41,432 nt of DNA, taken from the NCBI GenBank assembly GCA_029946105.1, contig JAQSDW010000100.1, forward strand, positions 1-41,432, in the 5' to 3' direction. Position 1 is the stretch's first letter. Each line of letters starts with the position of its first letter. The notes under the pieces are model-generated. The model worked only from the letters and a program-made list of their open reading frames with translations. It had not been told where the DNA came from and searched no databases. Below, piece by piece: positions 30,971 to 40,140 of the stretch. The stretch is from Reyranella sp. GTDB lineage: Bacteria; Pseudomonadota; Alphaproteobacteria; Reyranellales; Reyranellaceae. A program made the position numbers and the translations under genes.

Positions 30971-31219
30971 TCAGCCTGCTGCGTCGGCCTTGTCCCCGTC
31001 GAACAACTGCACCGGTGTTACCGGCATGATGGTCGAAATCGCGTGCTTGTAGACAAGCTGCGAATGGCCGTCACGGCGCAGAAGCACCGAGAAGTTGTCG
31101 AACCAAGTGACGATTCCCTGCAATTTTACGCCGTTCACGAGGAATATCGTGACCGGAGTCTTGTTCTTTCGCAGGTGGTTCAGGAACACGTCCTGAACGT
31201 TTTGTGCCTTTTCGCTCAT
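30971..31219 (-). CDS. hfq: RNA chaperone Hfq
   Basis: Sm-like hexameric RNA-binding protein of 82 residues that pairs small RNAs with mRNAs. Sm1 covers [20 protein letters not shown] and FDNFSVLL; Sm2 contains the YKHA motif ([10 protein letters not shown]). The short acidic tail ([10 protein letters not shown]) is typical of alphaproteobacteria. I chose ATG 31219 because AGAGG lies 8 bases upstream and the family begins [10 protein letters not shown]; a longer frame starting at 31261 has no such support. In Rhizobiales and relatives Hfq controls nitrogen-regulation genes, which fits its place downstream of ntrYX. Confidence 0.97.
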
Positions 31220-31304
31220 GTTTTTGGCCTCTTGCTGGGCGGCCGGCTCCCCGAAGGTCACCGGTTGGGGGGCGCGGATCTCTACCCGCTACCAAGTTAA
31301 AACA

Positions 31305-31332
31305 AATATAGGGGACGGTTTGTTCAAAGCAA
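31305..31332 (-). promoter_or_regulatory. Candidate hfq promoter
   Basis: On the minus strand, TTGCTT (31332-31327) and TATATT (31310-31305) are 16 bases apart, in the 104-base gap between the HAD gene stop and hfq. The gap is AT-rich at this point compared with its surroundings. The predicted leader is about 80 bases, long enough for regulation, but no hairpin was clear. Confidence 0.4.
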
Positions 31333-31980
31333 TGCTAGCAACTCATGACAATTACGTGCCCTGAGGCCGGGTGGATATTCCAGCAGGGGCGCGGCCAATT
31401 GTTCCGCTCCGCCGACCAGAACGGGTAAACACCCCGCCGCATGGGCACATTGAAGGTCGGCAAGGGAGTCGCCGACCATCCAGACCGTCTCGTCAGGGGC
31501 AATTCCCGTGCCGTCCAGCGCCAAATAGATCGGATCGGGAGCCGGCTTGTCGCGTTTCGCATCCTTGGCGCCGACGGCCCGGGTGATCCAGTGCTGCCAG
31601 CCAAGATGCGCCAGTTCCGTGCGCAGGTTGTCGCCAACCTTGTTGCTGACCACGGCCACATAGCAGCCTGCGTCATGGCAGCGCGCGAGCAGCAGATCGG
31701 CGCCGGGCAAGGCTTCCAGACGCTCCAGATGGATGCGGTGGAAGGTCCCGTAGAAGATTTGCTCCGCTTCGCCGGCCCGTGCGCCGAAAAGCGTCGGGAA
31801 AAGGTCACGAAGCGAGCCATGGGCCCGGACCTGGACCTCTTCTGCGGTCCATGGTGTCATCCCCAGCATCTTGAAGGTGTCATGGTAGCACTCGACGATC
31901 GTCGGCCAGGTGTTGACCAAGGTGTTGTCCCAGTCGAACAGCACGGCGCGTGGCAGCTTGATCCCGGCCGGGCTGCTCAC
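31324..31980 (-). CDS. HAD-superfamily hydrolase (phosphoglycolate phosphatase-like)
   Basis: Haloacid dehalogenase-type phosphatase of 218 residues. Motif I is FDWDNTLV with nucleophile Asp16 and Asp18, motif II is VVSNK, motif III is the Lys in KRDKPAPDP, and motif IV is GDSLADLQCA. The helical cap between motifs I and II is the C1 type of Gph/PGP enzymes; the substrate is not determinable. The start is GTG at 31980, overlapping the transaminase stop as GTGA; no better start exists before motif I. It is unusual between the transaminase and hfq, so it may be a lineage-specific insertion in the ntr-hfq run. Confidence 0.9.
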   Translation of the reverse strand: MSSPAGIKLPRAVLFDWDNTLVNTWPTIVECYHDTFKMLGMTPWTAEEVQVRAHGSLRDLFPTLFGARAGEAEQIFYGTFHRIHLERLEALPGADLLLARCHDAGCYVAVVSNKVGDNLRTELAHLGWQHWITRAVGAKDAKRDKPAPDPIYLALDGTGIAPDETVWMVGDSLADLQCAHAAGCLPVLVGGAEQLAAPLLEYPPGLRARNCHELLALL

Positions 31981-32840
31981 GTAACGCGATCTCCTGTTTC
32001 GGCGAAGCGCACATATTCCTCGCGCAGGCGTCGCGCCGTTGGGCCGACCTTGCCATCGCCCACCACATTGCCGTCGATCTTCACCACCGGGGTCACGAAC
32101 GACGTGGCGCTGGTGATGAATGCTTCCTGCGCCTTCATCGCTTCCGCCAGAGAGAACGGGCGCTCGACGAACTTGAGCTGAAGGGCGTTGCAGAGCGACT
32201 TCAGCGTCTGGCGCGTGATACCGGCCAGAATGCCGTTGTCGGTCTGGCGCGTCACCAGTTCGCCGTCGTGCGTGACGATCCAGGCATTGGTCGACGCGCC
32301 CTCGGTGACGCAGCCGTTGGTGTCGATAAGCCAAGCCTCGTAGGCGCCGCTCTCGCGCGCCGCTTGCTTCGCCAGCACGTTCGGCAGCAATGCTACGGTC
32401 TTGATGTCGCAACGTTCCCAGCGGATATCGGGGTGGCTCTTGATCGCGATTCCAGGGCCGGGATCGGCATCGCCGCGCTTGCTGTTCTTGGTCGTTAGCA
32501 CCAACGCCGGCTTGACCGGCGTGGTTGGAAAGGCGTGATCGCGCCGGGCAACGCCGCGCGTGACCTGCATATAGATCAGCCCGTCGCGCAGCCGGTTACG
32601 GCGCATCAGCTCGCGCAGGATGAAGCCCAACGCCGCCCGCGTCACCGGCCAATCGATCCGGAGTTCGCGCAAAGACCTTTCGAGCCGATCGATATGGGGA
32701 ACTTCGTCGATCAGCCGTCCGTCGCGAACGCCCACGACCTCGTAGACGCCATCGGCGAGCTGGTAGCCGCGATCCTCGATATGGACACTGGCCTCGCGGT
32801 GGTCGACGTAACGGCCGTTGACGTAAGCATAACGTGCCAT
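31977..32840 (-). CDS. dat: D-amino-acid transaminase (class IV aminotransferase)
   Basis: PLP-dependent fold-type IV aminotransferase of 287 residues. The PLP lysine is Lys147 in CDIKTVALLPN, a context close to Bacillus-type D-alanine aminotransferase. EGASTNAWIV (phosphate loop) and the N-terminal YVNGRYVDHREASVHIEDRGYQ are typical. It interconverts D-alanine and D-glutamate via their 2-oxo acids, so it may feed peptidoglycan synthesis; a branched-chain substrate is less likely. The ATG at 32840 starts 17 bases after the ntrX stop. A class IV transaminase downstream of ntrX is common in alphaproteobacteria. Confidence 0.92.
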   Translation of the reverse strand: MARYAYVNGRYVDHREASVHIEDRGYQLADGVYEVVGVRDGRLIDEVPHIDRLERSLRELRIDWPVTRAALGFILRELMRRNRLRDGLIYMQVTRGVARRDHAFPTTPVKPALVLTTKNSKRGDADPGPGIAIKSHPDIRWERCDIKTVALLPNVLAKQAARESGAYEAWLIDTNGCVTEGASTNAWIVTHDGELVTRQTDNGILAGITRQTLKSLCNALQLKFVERPFSLAEAMKAQEAFITSATSFVTPVVKIDGNVVGDGKVGPTARRLREEYVRFAETGDRVT

Positions 32841-32857: not shown

Positions 32858-34270
32858 TCAGTCCGCAGTGTCCGGGCCGGAACGCTCGTCCGGCGCGCCG
32901 CCATGCAAGCCCAGCGACTTCAGCTTGCGATGAAGTGCCGAGCGCTCCATGCCGACGAATGTCGCGGTGCGCGAAATGTTTCCGCCAAACCGCGTCACCT
33001 GGGCCAGCAGGTATTCCCGCTCGAAGACCTCGCGGGCCTCACGCAGCGGCAGTTGCATGATCTCGCCGCCCTTCTCCCAGCGCAGGACCGACGGTGCGTC
33101 TTCGCTGACATCGTTCGGCAGGACGTCGGCCCGGATCGGCCCGCCATCCGCAGGTGCGAGGATCAGCAGCCTCTCGATGACGTTACGCAGTTGCCGGACG
33201 TTGCCCGGCCAATCGTGGCCCTGCAGGGCGGCCAGCGTGTCTTCGCCGATCGTCCGCGACGGCAGCCCCGTTGCATCGGCGACACGGCGCAGAAGGTCTC
33301 CCGCCAGTTCGGGGATGTCCTCACGACGCTCGCTGAGCGGCGGGACCCGCAGCGAAACCACGTTCAGGCGGTGGTAAAGCTCTTCGCGGAATTCGCCTGA
33401 CGTAATCTCGTCCGACAGCGACCGCGCCGTCGAAGCGAGCACGCGCACATCGACCTCGACGCGGGTCTTGCCGCCGTCGCGGACGAAGGATTGTTCCTGA
33501 AGCACGCGCGCCAGTCGGCTTTGCAGCGCCAGCGGCAGGTCGCCGACCTCCTTGAGCAACAGGGTGCCGCCGTGGGCCATCTCGAAGGCGCCGGAGACGC
33601 GCAGCGTGTCTGCTTCCGTCTCGCCGTCGGTGCCGAACAGTTCGATATCCAGGCGTTCGGTTGGCAGTGTCGAGCAATTCACCACGACAAACGGCCCGTC
33701 GGCCCGTTTCGATCCCTGATGGATCAACCGTGCCATTGTCTCCTTGCCGGCTCCCGAAGCGCCGGTGATCAAGACCCGGCTGCCCGTCGGCGCAACCCGC
33801 TCGATCTGGGTGCGGACACTGGCGGCGCTCGGCGAGGTACCGACGAATGTCACGTCGCCGCCTGCCCGCCTGCGGAGACTCGCATTTTCGCGCTTCAGCC
33901 GGTCGGCCTCGATGGCACGGTCGACGACGAGAAGCAGGCGGTCGGCCTTGAACGGCTTTTCGATGAAATCGTAGGCACCCGTCTTGATCGCCGAAACAGC
34001 CGTATCGATCGTGCCGTGGCCACTGATCATGACGACGGGGATGGGTGGATCCTCGCGCCGAATGACCTCGAGAAGCTGCAGGCCGTCGAGTTCGCTGCCT
34101 TGCAGCCAGACGTCCAGGATGACGAGCGACGGGCGACGCTGGCGCACGGCGTCGATCGCCTCGGTACTGTTGTGTGCGCGACGGGCTGTATTTCCCTCGT
34201 CTTCGAGGATACCCGCGATCAGCGTGCAGATGTCGCGCTCGTCGTCGACGATCAGGATGTCGTGGGCCAT
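32858..34270 (-). CDS. ntrX: NtrX-type response regulator with altered AAA+ domain
   Basis: Response regulator of 470 residues partnered with NtrY. The receiver (1-120) has phospho-acceptor Asp53 and Lys105. The AAA+ domain (about 140-375) has Walker A GASGAGKE (170-177), but two positions differ from active sigma-54 activators. The GAFTGA loop is absent (ELFGTDGETEADTLRVSG in its place), which is usual for NtrX. The Walker B aspartate is lysine (Lys240 in GGTLLLKEVGD, codon AAG at 33553-33551). A Fis-type helix-turn-helix (NISRTATFVGMERSALHRKLK) ends the protein. It probably binds DNA without ATP-driven sigma-54 activation. ATG 34270 follows the ntrY stop by 34 bases. Confidence 0.93.
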   Translation of the reverse strand: MAHDILIVDDERDICTLIAGILEDEGNTARRAHNSTEAIDAVRQRRPSLVILDVWLQGSELDGLQLLEVIRREDPPIPVVMISGHGTIDTAVSAIKTGAYDFIEKPFKADRLLLVVDRAIEADRLKRENASLRRRAGGDVTFVGTSPSAASVRTQIERVAPTGSRVLITGASGAGKETMARLIHQGSKRADGPFVVVNCSTLPTERLDIELFGTDGETEADTLRVSGAFEMAHGGTLLLKEVGDLPLALQSRLARVLQEQSFVRDGGKTRVEVDVRVLASTARSLSDEITSGEFREELYHRLNVVSLRVPPLSERREDIPELAGDLLRRVADATGLPSRTIGEDTLAALQGHDWPGNVRQLRNVIERLLILAPADGGPIRADVLPNDVSEDAPSVLRWEKGGEIMQLPLREAREVFEREYLLAQVTRFGGNISRTATFVGMERSALHRKLKSLGLHGGAPDERSGPDTAD

Positions 34271-34304: not shown

Positions 34305-36536
34305 TCATTGTGCGGCTGTCGCGTGTGGTCGAGCCGACGCGATTTCCTTCGCGTCCCGCCGGAATACCAGACTGATGCACGCACCGCCACCCTCGCGGTC
34401 CTCCAAGGCAAGATAACCGCCGTGATCTTCCATGATTTTCTTGACGATCGCCAAACCCAGCCCGGTGCCTTTGCTGCGGGTCGTCATATAGGGCTCGGTC
34501 AGGCGCTCGCGCCCTTCCTTCGGCAATCCCTTGCCATTGTCCGCGACGATGATGCGTACGGTCGCACCATCATCCTTCAGGGTCAGCGCAATCTCCCCAG
34601 GCGGCAGGGCCCCGGCTGACGACGGCTCCCGCCCTTCGATGGCCTCCGCCGAGTTCTTCAGGATATTGGTCAGGACCTGACCGACCTGCCGGCGGTCGCA
34701 GATCAGGGGAATCGGTCCTTCCGGCAGATGCGAGGCGTAGCGGATGTCGGGATTACCATTGCGCTGGAGGAAAAGTGCCTGCTGGCAGAGCTCCTTGGCG
34801 TCCTCCGCCTGGACCGTCGGGCGCGGCATGCGGGCAAAGGACGAGAATTCGTCGACCATACGGCCGATATCGCCAACCTGACGGATGATCGTGTCGGTGC
34901 AGATCGTGAAGGTTTCCGGGTCGTCCTTGATCTGCTTCAGGTAGCGGCGCTTCAGCCGTTCGGCGGAGAGCTGGATCGGCGTGAGCGGGTTCTTGATTTC
35001 GTGCGCAATGCGCCGTGCCACGTCGCCCCATGCCGCCATGCGCTGAGCCGACATCAGATCGGTCACGTCGTCGAAGGTGACGACCGAGCCGGCGTCGGAG
35101 GCGGCACTGATCCGCACCAGCAGTATCCGCCTGGCACCGCGCTGGAGGATCTCGATCTGCCCCTGGGTGACGCGATCCGGCCGTTCGCCCGCCTGCGCCA
35201 TGAGTGCCGTGAGCTCGGGCATGACATCCGCCAATGGCCGCTCGAGCACACCATCCTCGGGCAGTGCGAGGAGTTCGAGGGCCGAACGGTTGCTTCTGAT
35301 GACGATGCCCTTGCCGTCGACGCTGAGTACTCCGGCCGAAACGCCGGCCAGCACCGCATCGGTCAGGCGACGGCGTGTGTCGAGTTCCCTGTTGGCGTTG
35401 ACCAGTTCTCCGCGTTGATGCTCGATCTGACTCGCCATGCGATTGAACGAGCGGGCGAGCTGGCCCAACTCATCGTTGGGCGGCCCCTCCTCCACGCGTG
35501 TCGTCAGGTCGCCTCCCCGCAGCCGCTCGGCCGCCTGCATCAATCCGCCGATCGGCTCCGTCAGGCGGGTCGCGAACAGGATCGCCAGCCAAACGGCGGC
35601 CAACAGCATCAGGAACGCAATCACGCCGCTGACCAGCAAGATGACCAGCTGGTTGCGTTGCAGCGCGGACTCGATCTGCGCATAGAACTTTCCGGCCAAT
35701 TCGATGCTCTTGATGTAGTCGACGACCCTGAGGTCGACTGCGTGGCCGGTCGCCAGAAAGAGCGGCTCGGCGATGAAAAGCTGCATGACGAAGTAGGCGC
35801 CGTTCTCCGAATCGAACTGGACCGGTCGTGCCTGATTGACCGCCTGCCAGATGAACTTCGCCGACGGCTGCGGATCCTTCATGCCCCTGGCATCGGCGGC
35901 CTGGGCCTGCGCGATCACGCCTTTGTCGGCATCGATGACGGTCGCCTCGATGATCGGGCGTCCCTGGATCGCGGTTTCCAGGAGACGCTTCGTCATCTCG
36001 CTGTCGCGAACGCCGTCGATGCCCAAGGCCTGAAGGGGGCCGGCAATCGCGTCGATGTCGCGCAGGATTTCATTTTCCCGCGCTCGCCGCACCGGCTCGC
36101 CGATCTCGCGAGCTGCTTCATATGCAGCCTGCGACGGTTTCACGACGAAATCCGTCAGATTGAGGAAAAGCAAGGAGAGGATGATGGCAACGATCAGTGT
36201 CGGCGTGATGGTGAAGACGCTGCACACCAGCACGAGCCGCATATGGAGCCGCGAGCCGGCGGCGCCGCGGCGGCGGTCCAGCCATAGTTGCGTGAGCCGC
36301 ACGGCAAGGACTGCCACGAGGGCGATGGCGATGACGAGATCCGACACCAGCAGGCCGGTTATCCAGCCGAGCGTCCCAAAGGCGGCCGGTACGAATCCCG
36401 CCAGCCACGCATAGGTAAGGGCGCCGGCGACGATGGCGAGCACGGCCAAGGACACGGCAGCAAAGCGGCCACTCAGACCGCGAAGCACCGCGCTTGCCCT
36501 ATCGCCCAAGCGTGGAGCGCCCAGCGCAGCTGTCAC
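34305..36536 (-). CDS. ntrY: Sensor histidine kinase NtrY
   Basis: Membrane sensor kinase of 743 residues. There are about four N-terminal transmembrane segments (within 20-160), then a periplasmic loop and a further membrane helix ending near residue 320. Next come HAMP (RLTEPIGGLMQAAERLRGGDL), PAS (about 390-480), the dimerisation/phosphoacceptor domain with His512 (AHEIKNPLTPIQ) and the HATPase domain (NILKNSAEAIEG, DNGKGLP, TGLGLAIVKKI). The order is that of NtrY. It senses nitrogen status or redox conditions in relatives. The start is ATG 36536, 4 bases after the ntrC stop (last base 36541), and ntrX lies downstream. Confidence 0.95.
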   Translation of the reverse strand: MTAALGAPRLGDRASAVLRGLSGRFAAVSLAVLAIVAGALTYAWLAGFVPAAFGTLGWITGLLVSDLVIAIALVAVLAVRLTQLWLDRRRGAAGSRLHMRLVLVCSVFTITPTLIVAIILSLLFLNLTDFVVKPSQAAYEAAREIGEPVRRARENEILRDIDAIAGPLQALGIDGVRDSEMTKRLLETAIQGRPIIEATVIDADKGVIAQAQAADARGMKDPQPSAKFIWQAVNQARPVQFDSENGAYFVMQLFIAEPLFLATGHAVDLRVVDYIKSIELAGKFYAQIESALQRNQLVILLVSGVIAFLMLLAAVWLAILFATRLTEPIGGLMQAAERLRGGDLTTRVEEGPPNDELGQLARSFNRMASQIEHQRGELVNANRELDTRRRLTDAVLAGVSAGVLSVDGKGIVIRSNRSALELLALPEDGVLERPLADVMPELTALMAQAGERPDRVTQGQIEILQRGARRILLVRISAASDAGSVVTFDDVTDLMSAQRMAAWGDVARRIAHEIKNPLTPIQLSAERLKRRYLKQIKDDPETFTICTDTIIRQVGDIGRMVDEFSSFARMPRPTVQAEDAKELCQQALFLQRNGNPDIRYASHLPEGPIPLICDRRQVGQVLTNILKNSAEAIEGREPSSAGALPPGEIALTLKDDGATVRIIVADNGKGLPKEGRERLTEPYMTTRSKGTGLGLAIVKKIMEDHGGYLALEDREGGGACISLVFRRDAKEIASARPHATAAQ

Positions 36537-36540
36537 TAAG

Positions 36541-38022
36541 TCACCCGCCTCGGCGAACCTGCGGTGTGCGAACCACGGGGACGTCGAGGTCCTTTATCTT
36601 CTTGCGCAACGTATTGCGATTGAGCCCCAGGAGACGGGCTGCGCGCAACTGATTCCCGCGTGTTGCCCCAAGAGCCAGGGACAGGAGGGGTCGCTCGACC
36701 TCGGAAATGACACGATCGTACATACCGTCCGGCGGCAGCCGGTCGCCATGGGCGGCAAACAGGGCCTGGAGGTGGCGGTCCATCGCATCGGCCAGGGAGG
36801 CGTCGGCGTGACCGGGGCTTCCGGCACCCGAGACTTCGAGTTCCGGTGCCTGGACGGCGTCGGCGAGCTCGGATTCGATGGTTTCGACGCCGATCACCTC
36901 TTCTGAATAGAGCGCGGACAGGCGGCGGACGAGATTTTCCAGTTCGCGTACATTGCCTGGCCAGCGGTGCTGGCGCAGACGTCCCATGGCATCCGTGGAC
37001 AGCACCTTGGTCGGCAGGCCATCCATGGTCGCGGCGCGCAGAAAGTGGTTGGTCAGTTCGGGGATATCGTCGAGGCGCTCGCGCAGCGGCGGCAACCTTA
37101 TCGGCACGACGTTGAGACGGTAGAACAGATCTTCGCGGAAAAGCCCCTGCTGGATCAGGCGGCGCAAGTCGCGATGAGTGGCGGCCACGATACGTACATT
37201 GGCCTTGATCGGCGTACGGCCTCCAACGGTCGTATATTCACCCTCCTGCAGAACACGCAGCAGGCGGGTCTGTGCCTCGGGCGGCATGTCGCCAATTTCG
37301 TCGAGGAAGAGCGTACCGCCGGAGGCCTGTTCGAACTTTCCCGATGAGCGCTGCACGGCCCCCGTGAAGGCGCCGCGCTCGTGCCCGAACAGCTCGCTCT
37401 CGATCAGTTCACGCGGGATCGCCGCCATATTGAGGGCCACGAACGGCCCCTTGCGGCGCTTGCCATAGTCGTGCAGCGCGCGTGCAACCAGTTCCTTGCC
37501 AGTACCCGACTCGCCCGACACCATCACCGTAAGGTCGGTCGACATCAGGCGCGCCAAGGCGCGATAAATCTCCTGCATCGCGGCCGAGCGCCCGATCAGC
37601 GGCAGCCGTTCGCTCTCCTCCGGGGGGTGCGCGCCGCGTGGCATCGAGGCGGCTGGTGCCGAAAGGGCCCGGTTCACCACCGATACCAGTTCGTTGAGAT
37701 CGAATGGCTTCGGCAGGTACTCGAAGGCGCCGCGCTCGGTAGCGCGCACGGCGGTAAGCAGTGTCGATTGCGCGCTCATCACGATGATGCGCAGGTCGGG
37801 CCGCAACTTGCGGATACGCGGCACGAGATCGAGGCCGTTTTCGTCAGGCATGACAACGTCAGTGATGACCAGCTGGCCTTCGCCTTCCTGGACCCATTGC
37901 CACAGGGTCGCCGCAGTGCCCGTGCTGCGCACGGTATGGCCCTGGCGGCCCAGCGCCTGGTGCAAGACGGTGCGGATCGCACGATCGTCGTCCGCGACGA
38001 GGATCGTTGCAGCGGCGCTCAT
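36541..38022 (-). CDS. ntrC: Nitrogen regulation response regulator NtrC
   Basis: Sigma-54 activator of 493 residues. The receiver has Asp55 as phospho-acceptor. The AAA+ domain has Walker A GESGTGKE (170-177), the sigma-54 contact loop GAFTGA (217-222) and an intact Walker B TLFLDE (237-242). The C-terminal Fis-type helix-turn-helix is [23 protein letters not shown]. All active-site residues are present, in contrast with the neighbouring NtrX. It is phosphorylated by NtrB and activates nitrogen-assimilation genes. The start overlaps the ntrB stop by 4 bases, and ntrY follows after 4 bases. Confidence 0.97.
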
Positions 38023-39131
38023 GGGGCAGCCTGTGAAAGTTGCATCGGCAGCATTACTCGGAATGTTGTCCGGCCGGGCGCACTATCGAACTCGATGGCC
38101 CCGCCGTGGTCGTTGATGATCTTGGCCACCAATGCAAGACCCAGGCCGGTCCCCGTCGGCTTGTTGGTTACGAAAGCGTCAAACAAGTGCGCCCGGATCT
38201 CGTCCGGCACGCCGCCACCGTTATCGCGAACCGAAACGACCAACGGCAGATTGACGCGCGCCTGCTGTCCCGGCACCGCTAGGCGAAGGCCATGCCGGAA
38301 GGCGGTCGACAGTTCTATTTCGCGCCCACCTTCGCCCAGCGCCTCGCAAGCGTTCTTGACCAGATTGAGAAAGACCTGGATGAGCTGGTCGCGATCGCCA
38401 TGGACCTCGGGCAACGACGGATCGTATGTCTCGACGAAGCGAACGCCCTTACCGAAGCCGTTCTCGGAGAGGCGGCGAACATGGTTCAGCACCTGATGAA
38501 TGTTGATCGGACCGCGCTCGATCGGGCGGCCGTCGGCGAACGCCTCCATGCGATCGACCAATGCCACGATGCGGTCCGTTTCCTCGCAGATCAAGCTGGT
38601 CAGCTCGCGGTCGCTGTCGGGAACCGACTGCTCGAGGAGTTGGGCCGCTCCACGAATACCAGACAGCGGATTCTTGACCTCATGCGCCAGCATCGCGGCC
38701 AGCGCACTCACCGAGCGGGCCGCGCTCCGGTGCGACATCTGGCGGTCGATATTGCGGGCAATCGTCTGCTCCACCAGCGATACGGCGACCAACCCGTCGC
38801 TGTCGGCGACCGGCGACAGGCGGAGCGCACAGAACCGAGTGCCGATACGCGGCGAGGCGAGCGTGATGCCGTTTTCCGCGACCGCGCCGCCACTCGCCTC
38901 AACCTGCTCGAGCAACGAGAAAAGCGGCGTATCCTCGGGCACGAATTCGTCCAGCGGATGGCTGATCAGGCGCGCACGGCCCACCCCGAAGAATTGCTCG
39001 GCCGACAGATTGGCGTAGTGGATCAACCGGCCACGGTCGACGACAAGGATCGCCTCGGACAGCGAATCCAGGATGGCCGCGGAAAACAGGTCAGGCGAGT
39101 CGGCGGAGCGCTTGAAGGGACGCAACGCCAT
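38019..39131 (-). CDS. ntrB: Nitrogen regulation sensor kinase NtrB
   Basis: Cytoplasmic histidine kinase/phosphatase of 370 residues. A PAS domain (about 15-125: [16 protein letters not shown]) is followed by the H-box with His150 ([18 protein letters not shown]) and an HATPase domain ([35 protein letters not shown]). PII protein controls it in relatives. No membrane segment is seen, as expected for NtrB. The start is ATG 39131, one base after the dusB stop; the open frame extends further upstream but lies there inside dusB. ntrC follows with a 4-base overlap. Confidence 0.96.
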
Positions 39132-39132
39132 G

Positions 39133-40140
39133 CTAGGCCGCCTGCCGTTCGAGGGCGGGCAGAAAGAAGGCGGCAAGCATTGCCCGCACCTTGGCCGGAT
39201 CAGGCTCACGATTGACCGCGCCGCGGAAGTCGGCCGACGCCGGCAGGCCTTTGGAGTACCAACCGAGATGCTTGCGCGCCATGCGCACGCCCGTTTCCAG
39301 CCCGTAATGCTCGAGCATCGATTCGTAATGGGCGCGCACCGTGGTGTACTGCTCGGCAAGCGAGGGATCGGGCAGTCGCTCGCCCGTCCGCAGATAGTGG
39401 ATCGCCTGGTTGAGGAACCACGGCCGCCCATAGGCGCCGCGCCCGATCATAACGCCGTCGGCGCCCGACTGGGCCAGCGCCTGGTCGACGTCGTCGAGCG
39501 TGTTGATGTCGCCATTCACGATCACGGGCAGCTTCGTCGCCGCCTTGACGTTGGCCACGAACGCCCAGTCGGCATGACCGTCGTAGAACTGGCAGCGCGT
39601 GCGACCGTGCACGGTCAGCATCTGAATGCCGCAGTTCTCGGCGATGCGCGCGAGGCTGGGGGCATTGCGGTTGGCGTCGTCCCAGCCCGTGCGCATCTTG
39701 AGGGTCACCGGCAGCTTCACCGCCTTGACCGTGGCTTCGAGAATCTTGGCCGCGTGAACCTCATCGCGCATCAGCGACGATCCGGCATGACCGTTCACGA
39801 CCTTCTTCACCGGGCAGCCGAAATTGATGTCGATGAGTGCCGCGCCCCGGTCCTCGTTGAGCTTGGCCGCCTCGGCCATCACTTCGGGCTCGCAGCCGGC
39901 GAGCTGGACCGACATCGGGAATTCTTCGGGCGAGTTCTTCGCCATCAAGAGCGTCTTGCGGTTTTCGCGGACCATCGCGGCCGAGGCGATCATTTCGGAT
40001 ACGACGAGGCCGGCGCCGCCGCGCTTGACCATCCGGCGGAACGGCATGTCCGTGACACCGGACATCGGCGCCAGGATGACAGGGTCTTCAAGGCGGACCG
40101 GACCGATGTCGATGGGGCGGAGGCGATTGGCTTCAGCCAT
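39133..40140 (-). CDS. dusB: tRNA-dihydrouridine synthase DusB (NifR3)
   Basis: FMN-dependent enzyme of 335 residues that reduces uridine in the tRNA D-loop. It has a TIM barrel with [13 protein letters not shown] near the start, the signature [14 protein letters not shown] with its catalytic cysteine, [14 protein letters not shown] and NGDI, then a helical C-terminal tRNA-binding domain. It is the first gene of the long ntr run; dusB-ntrBC is the classical nifR3-ntrBC order. ATG 40140 follows AAGGGA (40142-40147 on the minus strand). Its promoter region holds a perfect palindrome (40166-40180). Confidence 0.97.

Follow-up and report, generated by a model that had tools for sequence, protein, structure and literature searches.

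A lysine fixed in place of the Walker B aspartate of NtrX in Reyranella, and its predicted effect on ATP hydrolysis

Does an NtrX whose Walker B aspartate has been exchanged for a lysine still hydrolyse ATP, and what would such a regulator do if it bound the nucleotide only? The question is raised by a locus of Reyranella sp., located in a window (the whole stretch of DNA that was analysed) of 41,432 nucleotides. The open reading frame at 32858..34270 on the minus strand encodes a protein of 470 amino acids. It is NtrX, as a first-pass annotation of the same sequence had proposed: it passes the NCBIfam NtrX equivalog NF051870 with 670.2 bits against a cut-off of 600, it matches the Pfam families Response_reg, Sigma54_activat, AAA_lid_14 and HTH_8, and its nearest solved structures are those of Brucella NtrX. 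A receiver (residues ~1-120) with Asp9, Asp10 and Asp53, an AAA+ domain (~141-312), a lid (~313-385) and a Fis-type HTH (~409-455) are all found. The Walker B aspartate is a usual feature of NtrX that lies outside the curated score test, which this protein passes with its lysine.

The gene belongs to a block dus-ntrB-ntrC-ntrY-ntrX, where it adjoins ntrY and lies downstream of ntrC and of an ntrB-like kinase gene. The partner sensor kinase gene ntrY (34305..36536, minus strand) encodes the Pfam domains NtrY_N, HAMP, PAS, HisKA and HATPase_c. The neighbouring ntrC (36541..38022, minus strand; TIGR01818 with 692 bits, above 558.6) served as an internal control; its product retains both the Walker B stretch FLDEIGDMP and GAFTGA, and the aspartate and GAFTGA were found in the NtrC of 20/20 genomes of the genus. 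The NtrC of the window carries a histidine at its sensor I position (AATH), and so do the 20/20 copies read from the genus. The ntrB-like sensor kinase gene (38019..39431, minus strand; Pfam PAS, HisKA and HATPase_c), the start of which is uncertain, owes its name to its position beside ntrC, and the dihydrouridine synthase gene dus (39133-40140) is found upstream of it.

On the minus strand, Walker B is encoded by GGC ACC CTG TTG CTC AAG GAG GTC, in which AAG (33553-33551) specifies Lys240 of the 470 residues, within the stretch GTLLLKEVGDLP. The replacement of the aspartate by lysine that had been annotated at this codon is exact in its coordinates. The next codon, GAG (33548..33550, minus strand), encodes the catalytic glutamate Glu241, kept in 59/59 proteins of the clade that carries the lysine (hereafter the Lys clade). 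Walker A was annotated as kept and indeed reads GASGAGKE at residues 170-177 (33740..33763, minus strand), Lys176 and Glu177 being unvaried in the 58/58 readable clade proteins. The same holds for Asn198 (33677..33679, minus strand), which by its motif position is the probable equivalent of the glutamate switch N64 of PspF, as well as for Asn357 and Arg359 of sensor II and the receiver residue Asp53; Asp9 and Asp10 of the receiver are present in 57/57 readable proteins. Close to the site, Ser200 (57/58), Leu249 (56/58) and Thr178 (55/58) are near-fixed changes in the Lys clade.

Two other departures were considered as possible clade-specific changes. The R-hand (residues 295-301, REELYHR; 33368..33388, minus strand) keeps the R-finger residues Arg295 and Arg301, each in 58/58 readable clade proteins, and has Glu instead of Asp at 297; Glu297 occurs in 47/58 Lys-clade proteins and in 2/198 proteins outside the order, but its presence in 12/47 proteins of a further alphaproteobacterial sample weakens its claim to be specific. 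Similarly, residue 282 at the sensor I position (33425..33427, minus strand) is Ala and not Asn, and A, S, T, G, C or V, never Asn, is found there in 58/58 readable clade proteins. This loss was rejected as a second clade-specific defect because it is common in NtrX: outside the order, Asn is kept in only 96/198 NtrX and absent in 102/198.

The absence of GAFTGA had been described as usual for NtrX, and the exact string was found neither in the window NtrX nor in any of the 267/267 distinct NtrX of the main set. Without the GAFTGA loop, and with Lys-Glu instead of Asp-Glu in Walker B, the window NtrX lacks these features of a sigma54-activating bEBP. Since NtrX has no GAFTGA in any case, the role as a sigma54 motor was already gone, and in this one respect the observation is weaker than it was first presented. 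It is stronger in another, as the lysine is fixed in a clade that has Glu- and Asp-bearing relatives in the same family.

An alignment of 36 sequences was used for an AlphaFold2 model of NtrX (mean pLDDT 82.9, pTM 0.59), which places Lys240 at the end of a confidently predicted strand (236-240). Its best matches in the PDB are the Brucella NtrX structures 5M7N, 5M7O and 5M7P, of which one has ADP, one no named ligand and one ATP. Isolated AAA+ domains such as that of FleQ match the model with a TM score (by target) of ~0.92, so the AAA+ fold as modelled looks normal, whereas the low pTM and a large whole-chain rmsd mean that the arrangement of the domains is not settled by the model.

The distribution of the lysine was read from a search of 76 genomes of the order, 70 of which had an NtrX at E up to 1e-120. 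The genus (Reyranella and near names) is represented by 65 genomes, the present one included; six of these had no match at this threshold, and in one (G018) the NtrX stretch with the codon for residue 240 falls between two contigs and was excluded from the counts. The Lys clade as read comprises the remaining 58 genus genomes and the single genome of genus g20, which nests inside the clade in a tree of 50 rows; with seven named loci encoding identical proteins, these 59 genomes give 66 loci; the distinct proteins among them number 59, of which two are partial. Among the best 80 of a longer list, the nearest named relatives were Reyranella, 'Enhydrobacter aerosaccus' and Rhodospirillales or Alphaproteobacteria. 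Residue 240 is lysine in 59/59 distinct proteins of the genus and g20, encoded by AAG in 55 and AAA in 4. Other lysine codons in the full-length clade proteins are 569 AAG and 44 AAA, which suggests that the codon at residue 240 drifts as usual and that the residue does not. With 0/265 outside the order, the lysine is far beyond chance.

These counts also bear on the idea that the lysine is a sequencing, assembly or binning error, or belongs to a decaying pseudogene. In its favour, draft and metagenome assemblies make up many of the genomes; however, the residue is present in every distinct protein read from the clade, three of them from genomes assembled as single contigs (G016, G022 and G069), the frames are open in the genus genomes, and the HTH and receiver are strongly conserved. 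The lysine is no sequencing error, and we count this explanation, to which we give next to no probability, as refuted by the sequence data. As for fixation across the whole order, which had been put forward as a check, it holds within the genus, for all members that could be read, and is rejected for the order, because sister genera carry Glu or Asp.

Within the family, Glu (GAG) was found in 4/4 proteins of sister genus g21 and in 1/1 of g18, and Asp in 4/4 of g19; the second family of the order, represented by a single genome, also has Asp. In g21, two of the four proteins (L136 and L138) have, besides the Walker B Glu, an Asn or His in place of the R-finger Arg295. Outside the order, a first set of 198 distinct proteins, part of which was selected by likeness to the query NtrX so that it is not a random sample, contained Asp in 197 and Glu in a single Cohaesibacter protein (L091). 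The class part of this set holds the closer matches among 232 class genomes with a match. A further set of 70 loci gave, after three repeats were dropped, 67 new proteins, of which 47 were alphaproteobacterial, while 20 were NtrX-like, came from other classes within the phylum and scored below the NtrX cut-off; all 67/67 have Asp. Altogether, of the 265 proteins from outside the order that are NtrX or NtrX-like, 264 have Asp, one has Glu and none has Lys, and the aspartate therefore does matter in most NtrX.

When the column of residue 240 was masked, the 20/20 Lys rows of the 50-row tree fell on one side of a single branch (support 100/100), and three state changes among Asp, Glu and Lys are needed on the tree. 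By codon parsimony, three base changes suffice for a route from Asp through Glu to Lys on which Asp is regained once, compared with four for a direct change from Asp to Lys with two gains of Glu. The route through Glu is thus favoured by parsimony, which is not proof, and it points to a site that had become relaxed in the family by the time the lysine arose. The equivalent of the catalytic Glu241 is changed in 7/198 proteins outside the order and in 1/47 of the further alphaproteobacterial ones (to Asp). It is Ala or Ser in 8/20 NtrX-like proteins of other classes (L336, L342, L343, L346, L349, L350, L353 and L354), where Walker B reads LDA or LDS; here the aspartate is retained and the catalytic Glu lost, a separate kind of site loss. 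Changes of the hydrolysis site are a repeated theme around NtrX, and none of those seen is more radical than Lys at the position of the aspartate.

Constraint was compared across the domains of the Lys clade, in which 90/120 positions of the receiver, 68/172 of the AAA+ domain, 39/73 of the lid and 45/47 of the HTH are unvaried. Disjoint pairs of like total identity were compared, with the AAA+ core taken without loop 1. The median share of the core in the change of AAA+ and receiver together is 0.76-0.78 for 28 Lys-clade pairs; pairs from outside the order (34 and 24) give 0.51-0.53, and four pairs of sister-genus proteins, with a wider identity range, give 0.61-0.63. These figures are descriptive, pairs inside one clade not being independent and the clade being a single lineage. 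The share in NtrC of the genus (20 genomes) is 0.52 for 189 pairs that are not disjoint and include loop 1. The high share in the Lys clade can be read as a slow receiver instead, as pN is about equal in the AAA+ domain (0.116 in the Lys clade vs 0.119 outside) and differs in the receiver (0.031 vs 0.100). Besides residue 240, the residues fixed in the clade (at least 95%) that differ from a residue conserved at 90% or more outside the order are at positions 15 and 89 of the receiver, 200, 245 and 249 of the AAA+ domain and 326 and 345 of the lid; at positions 15, 89, 245 and 326 the clade state is common to most sister-genus proteins.

Several known systems may be compared. NtrX of Brucella abortus (5M7N, 5M7O and 5M7P) resembles the present protein in its receiver, its AAA+ domain without GAFTGA and its Fis HTH, with 56-57% identity in structural alignments, and according to the PDB entry titles it was crystallized with ATP and with ADP. 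Unlike the Reyranella protein, it has Asp in Walker B; the sensor I Asn is missing from both and is Ala in Brucella. VpsR is an atypical bEBP-type regulator. It is a fold match (7V2B, 7V2V; 28-30% identity) that binds c-di-GMP by PDB entry title, and the likeness drawn here is one of fold. The literature searched gave no answer as to whether NtrX uses ATP hydrolysis, the Brucella structure paper being outside its scope; among the titles and abstract openings listed, which left out most subscription journals, none was found to describe an NtrX with Lys in its Walker B or to deal with NtrX of Reyranella.

The removal of a Walker B acid has been studied by engineering PspF, a sigma54 activator. 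As excerpted, Table 1 of one report gives the D107A variant a Vmax of 0.23 vs 39.5 per min (~0.6%) and a Km of 300 vs 250 uM (PMC3419264), and excerpts of another give the E108Q variant a 30-fold tighter binding of ATP with an activity <1% (PMC4132715). In both, hydrolysis stops while the Km is kept (D107A) or binding is tightened (E108Q). These acids were exchanged for Ala or Gln by design, whereas the lysine of Reyranella NtrX is natural and fixed in its clade. In the excerpted part of a study of Caulobacter NtrC, the Walker B Asp is described as vital to hydrolysis and not to binding, and this NtrC, which has no GAFTGA, requires it, the D235A strain showing no growth in ammonium-defined medium (PMC10274813); the absence of GAFTGA alone therefore does not make hydrolysis dispensable. 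The same excerpts describe NtrC of R. capsulatus, also without GAFTGA and acting with sigma70, as requiring the binding of ATP and not its hydrolysis (PMC10274813). We take the latter as a model of how the protein may work, though it is an NtrC and not an NtrX.

Taken together, these analogies make a phosphorylated, DNA-bound NtrX that binds the nucleotide without hydrolysing it the likeliest reading, and we consider it probable that the window encodes a working two-component regulator, controlled by phosphorylation, of this kind. NtrY would phosphorylate the receiver, and the AAA+ domain would still bind ATP or ADP through its P-loop and sensor II, with Lys240 presumably occupying the place where an acid normally helps to hold Mg2+. 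The assembly of dimers or oligomers and the binding to DNA may be tuned by whether the site is occupied by nucleotide and by the conserved R-fingers, and the protein, having no GAFTGA loop, would serve as a DNA-bound switch at promoters that do not depend on sigma54. The earlier suggestion that ATP is not hydrolysed stands as an expectation by analogy with PspF D107A, zero hydrolysis itself being a prediction. That the protein would be a sensor rather than a motor may hold for much of NtrX, given the absence of the sensor I Asn from 102/198 proteins and the Ala or Ser at the catalytic Glu in 8/20. In that case the lysine would have come late in a wider trend and would not be its cause.

Lysine may behave unlike alanine, and the binding of Mg-ATP could be blocked altogether. 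In a rival reading, that of a full pseudo-ATPase, the pocket of the AAA+ domain would be shut by a salt bridge of Lys240 with Glu177 or Glu241, and the domain, binding neither ATP nor ADP, would be only a scaffold between receiver and HTH. Such a loss would fit the drift of sensor I and the low share of unvaried AAA+ positions, the lowest of the domains; yet residues that a pure scaffold could do without (Lys176 and Glu177 of Walker A, Asn198, Arg359 of sensor II and the two R-finger arginines) are unvaried in 58/58 proteins, and in the excerpt on PspF removal of the Asp hardly alters the Km (PMC3419264), so that we regard it as unlikely. A rather doubtful variant of nucleotide binding treats Lys240 as a built-in cation, whose amino group would replace Mg2+ by the ATP phosphates and pair with Glu177; ATP would be bound without Mg2+ and without turnover, and NtrX would be a stoichiometric sensor of ATP (energy state), combined with phosphorylation by NtrY, and would have evolved by way of Glu, which sister genera still carry.

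Hydrolysis might also persist in a rebuilt site, in which Lys240, Glu241, the R-fingers and the co-changes A200S, T249L and V/L178T would provide slow turnover with a different geometry. The proximity of these near-fixed co-changes to the site and the retention of Glu241, Asn198 and the R-fingers speak for it, but with the charge of the Asp reversed, the sensor I Asn absent and the near-total loss of activity in the PspF D107A excerpt (PMC3419264), we find it quite improbable. Highly improbable in our estimate is neutral tolerance, that is, a family in which hydrolysis is unused and the site drifted to Lys without functional effect: the retention of the sensor I Asn in only 96/198 proteins and the changes of the catalytic Glu (7/198, and 8/20 outside the class) agree with it, whereas the Asp of 264/265 proteins outside the order points to a site normally under selection, and the lysine shows no further change across the 59 proteins read.

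The probable nucleotide-binding, non-hydrolysing NtrX gives this clade a wider interest. A charge-reversed Walker B that is fixed, in a family that also has living members with Glu and with Asp, provides a natural series to test whether NtrX needs ATP hydrolysis and, if the reading is true, would show an AAA+ motor domain becoming a nucleotide-controlled switch.

Regarding the rest of the genome, the sigma54-activator family is represented by two strong AAA+ domains, those of NtrC and NtrX. A third match is weak (28.9 bits) and lies in an open frame of 872 residues (L003; G000:C185:2845-3219), and one sigma54 gene is present (L133). Downstream of ntrX, the window encodes a D-amino-acid transaminase, a HAD hydrolase, hfq (30971-31261) and hflX. 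The open frame of the HAD hydrolase (31324-32412) extends upstream across the D-amino-acid transaminase gene; its true start is likely further inside, since the match to HAD starts no earlier than residue 155-157 of the frame.
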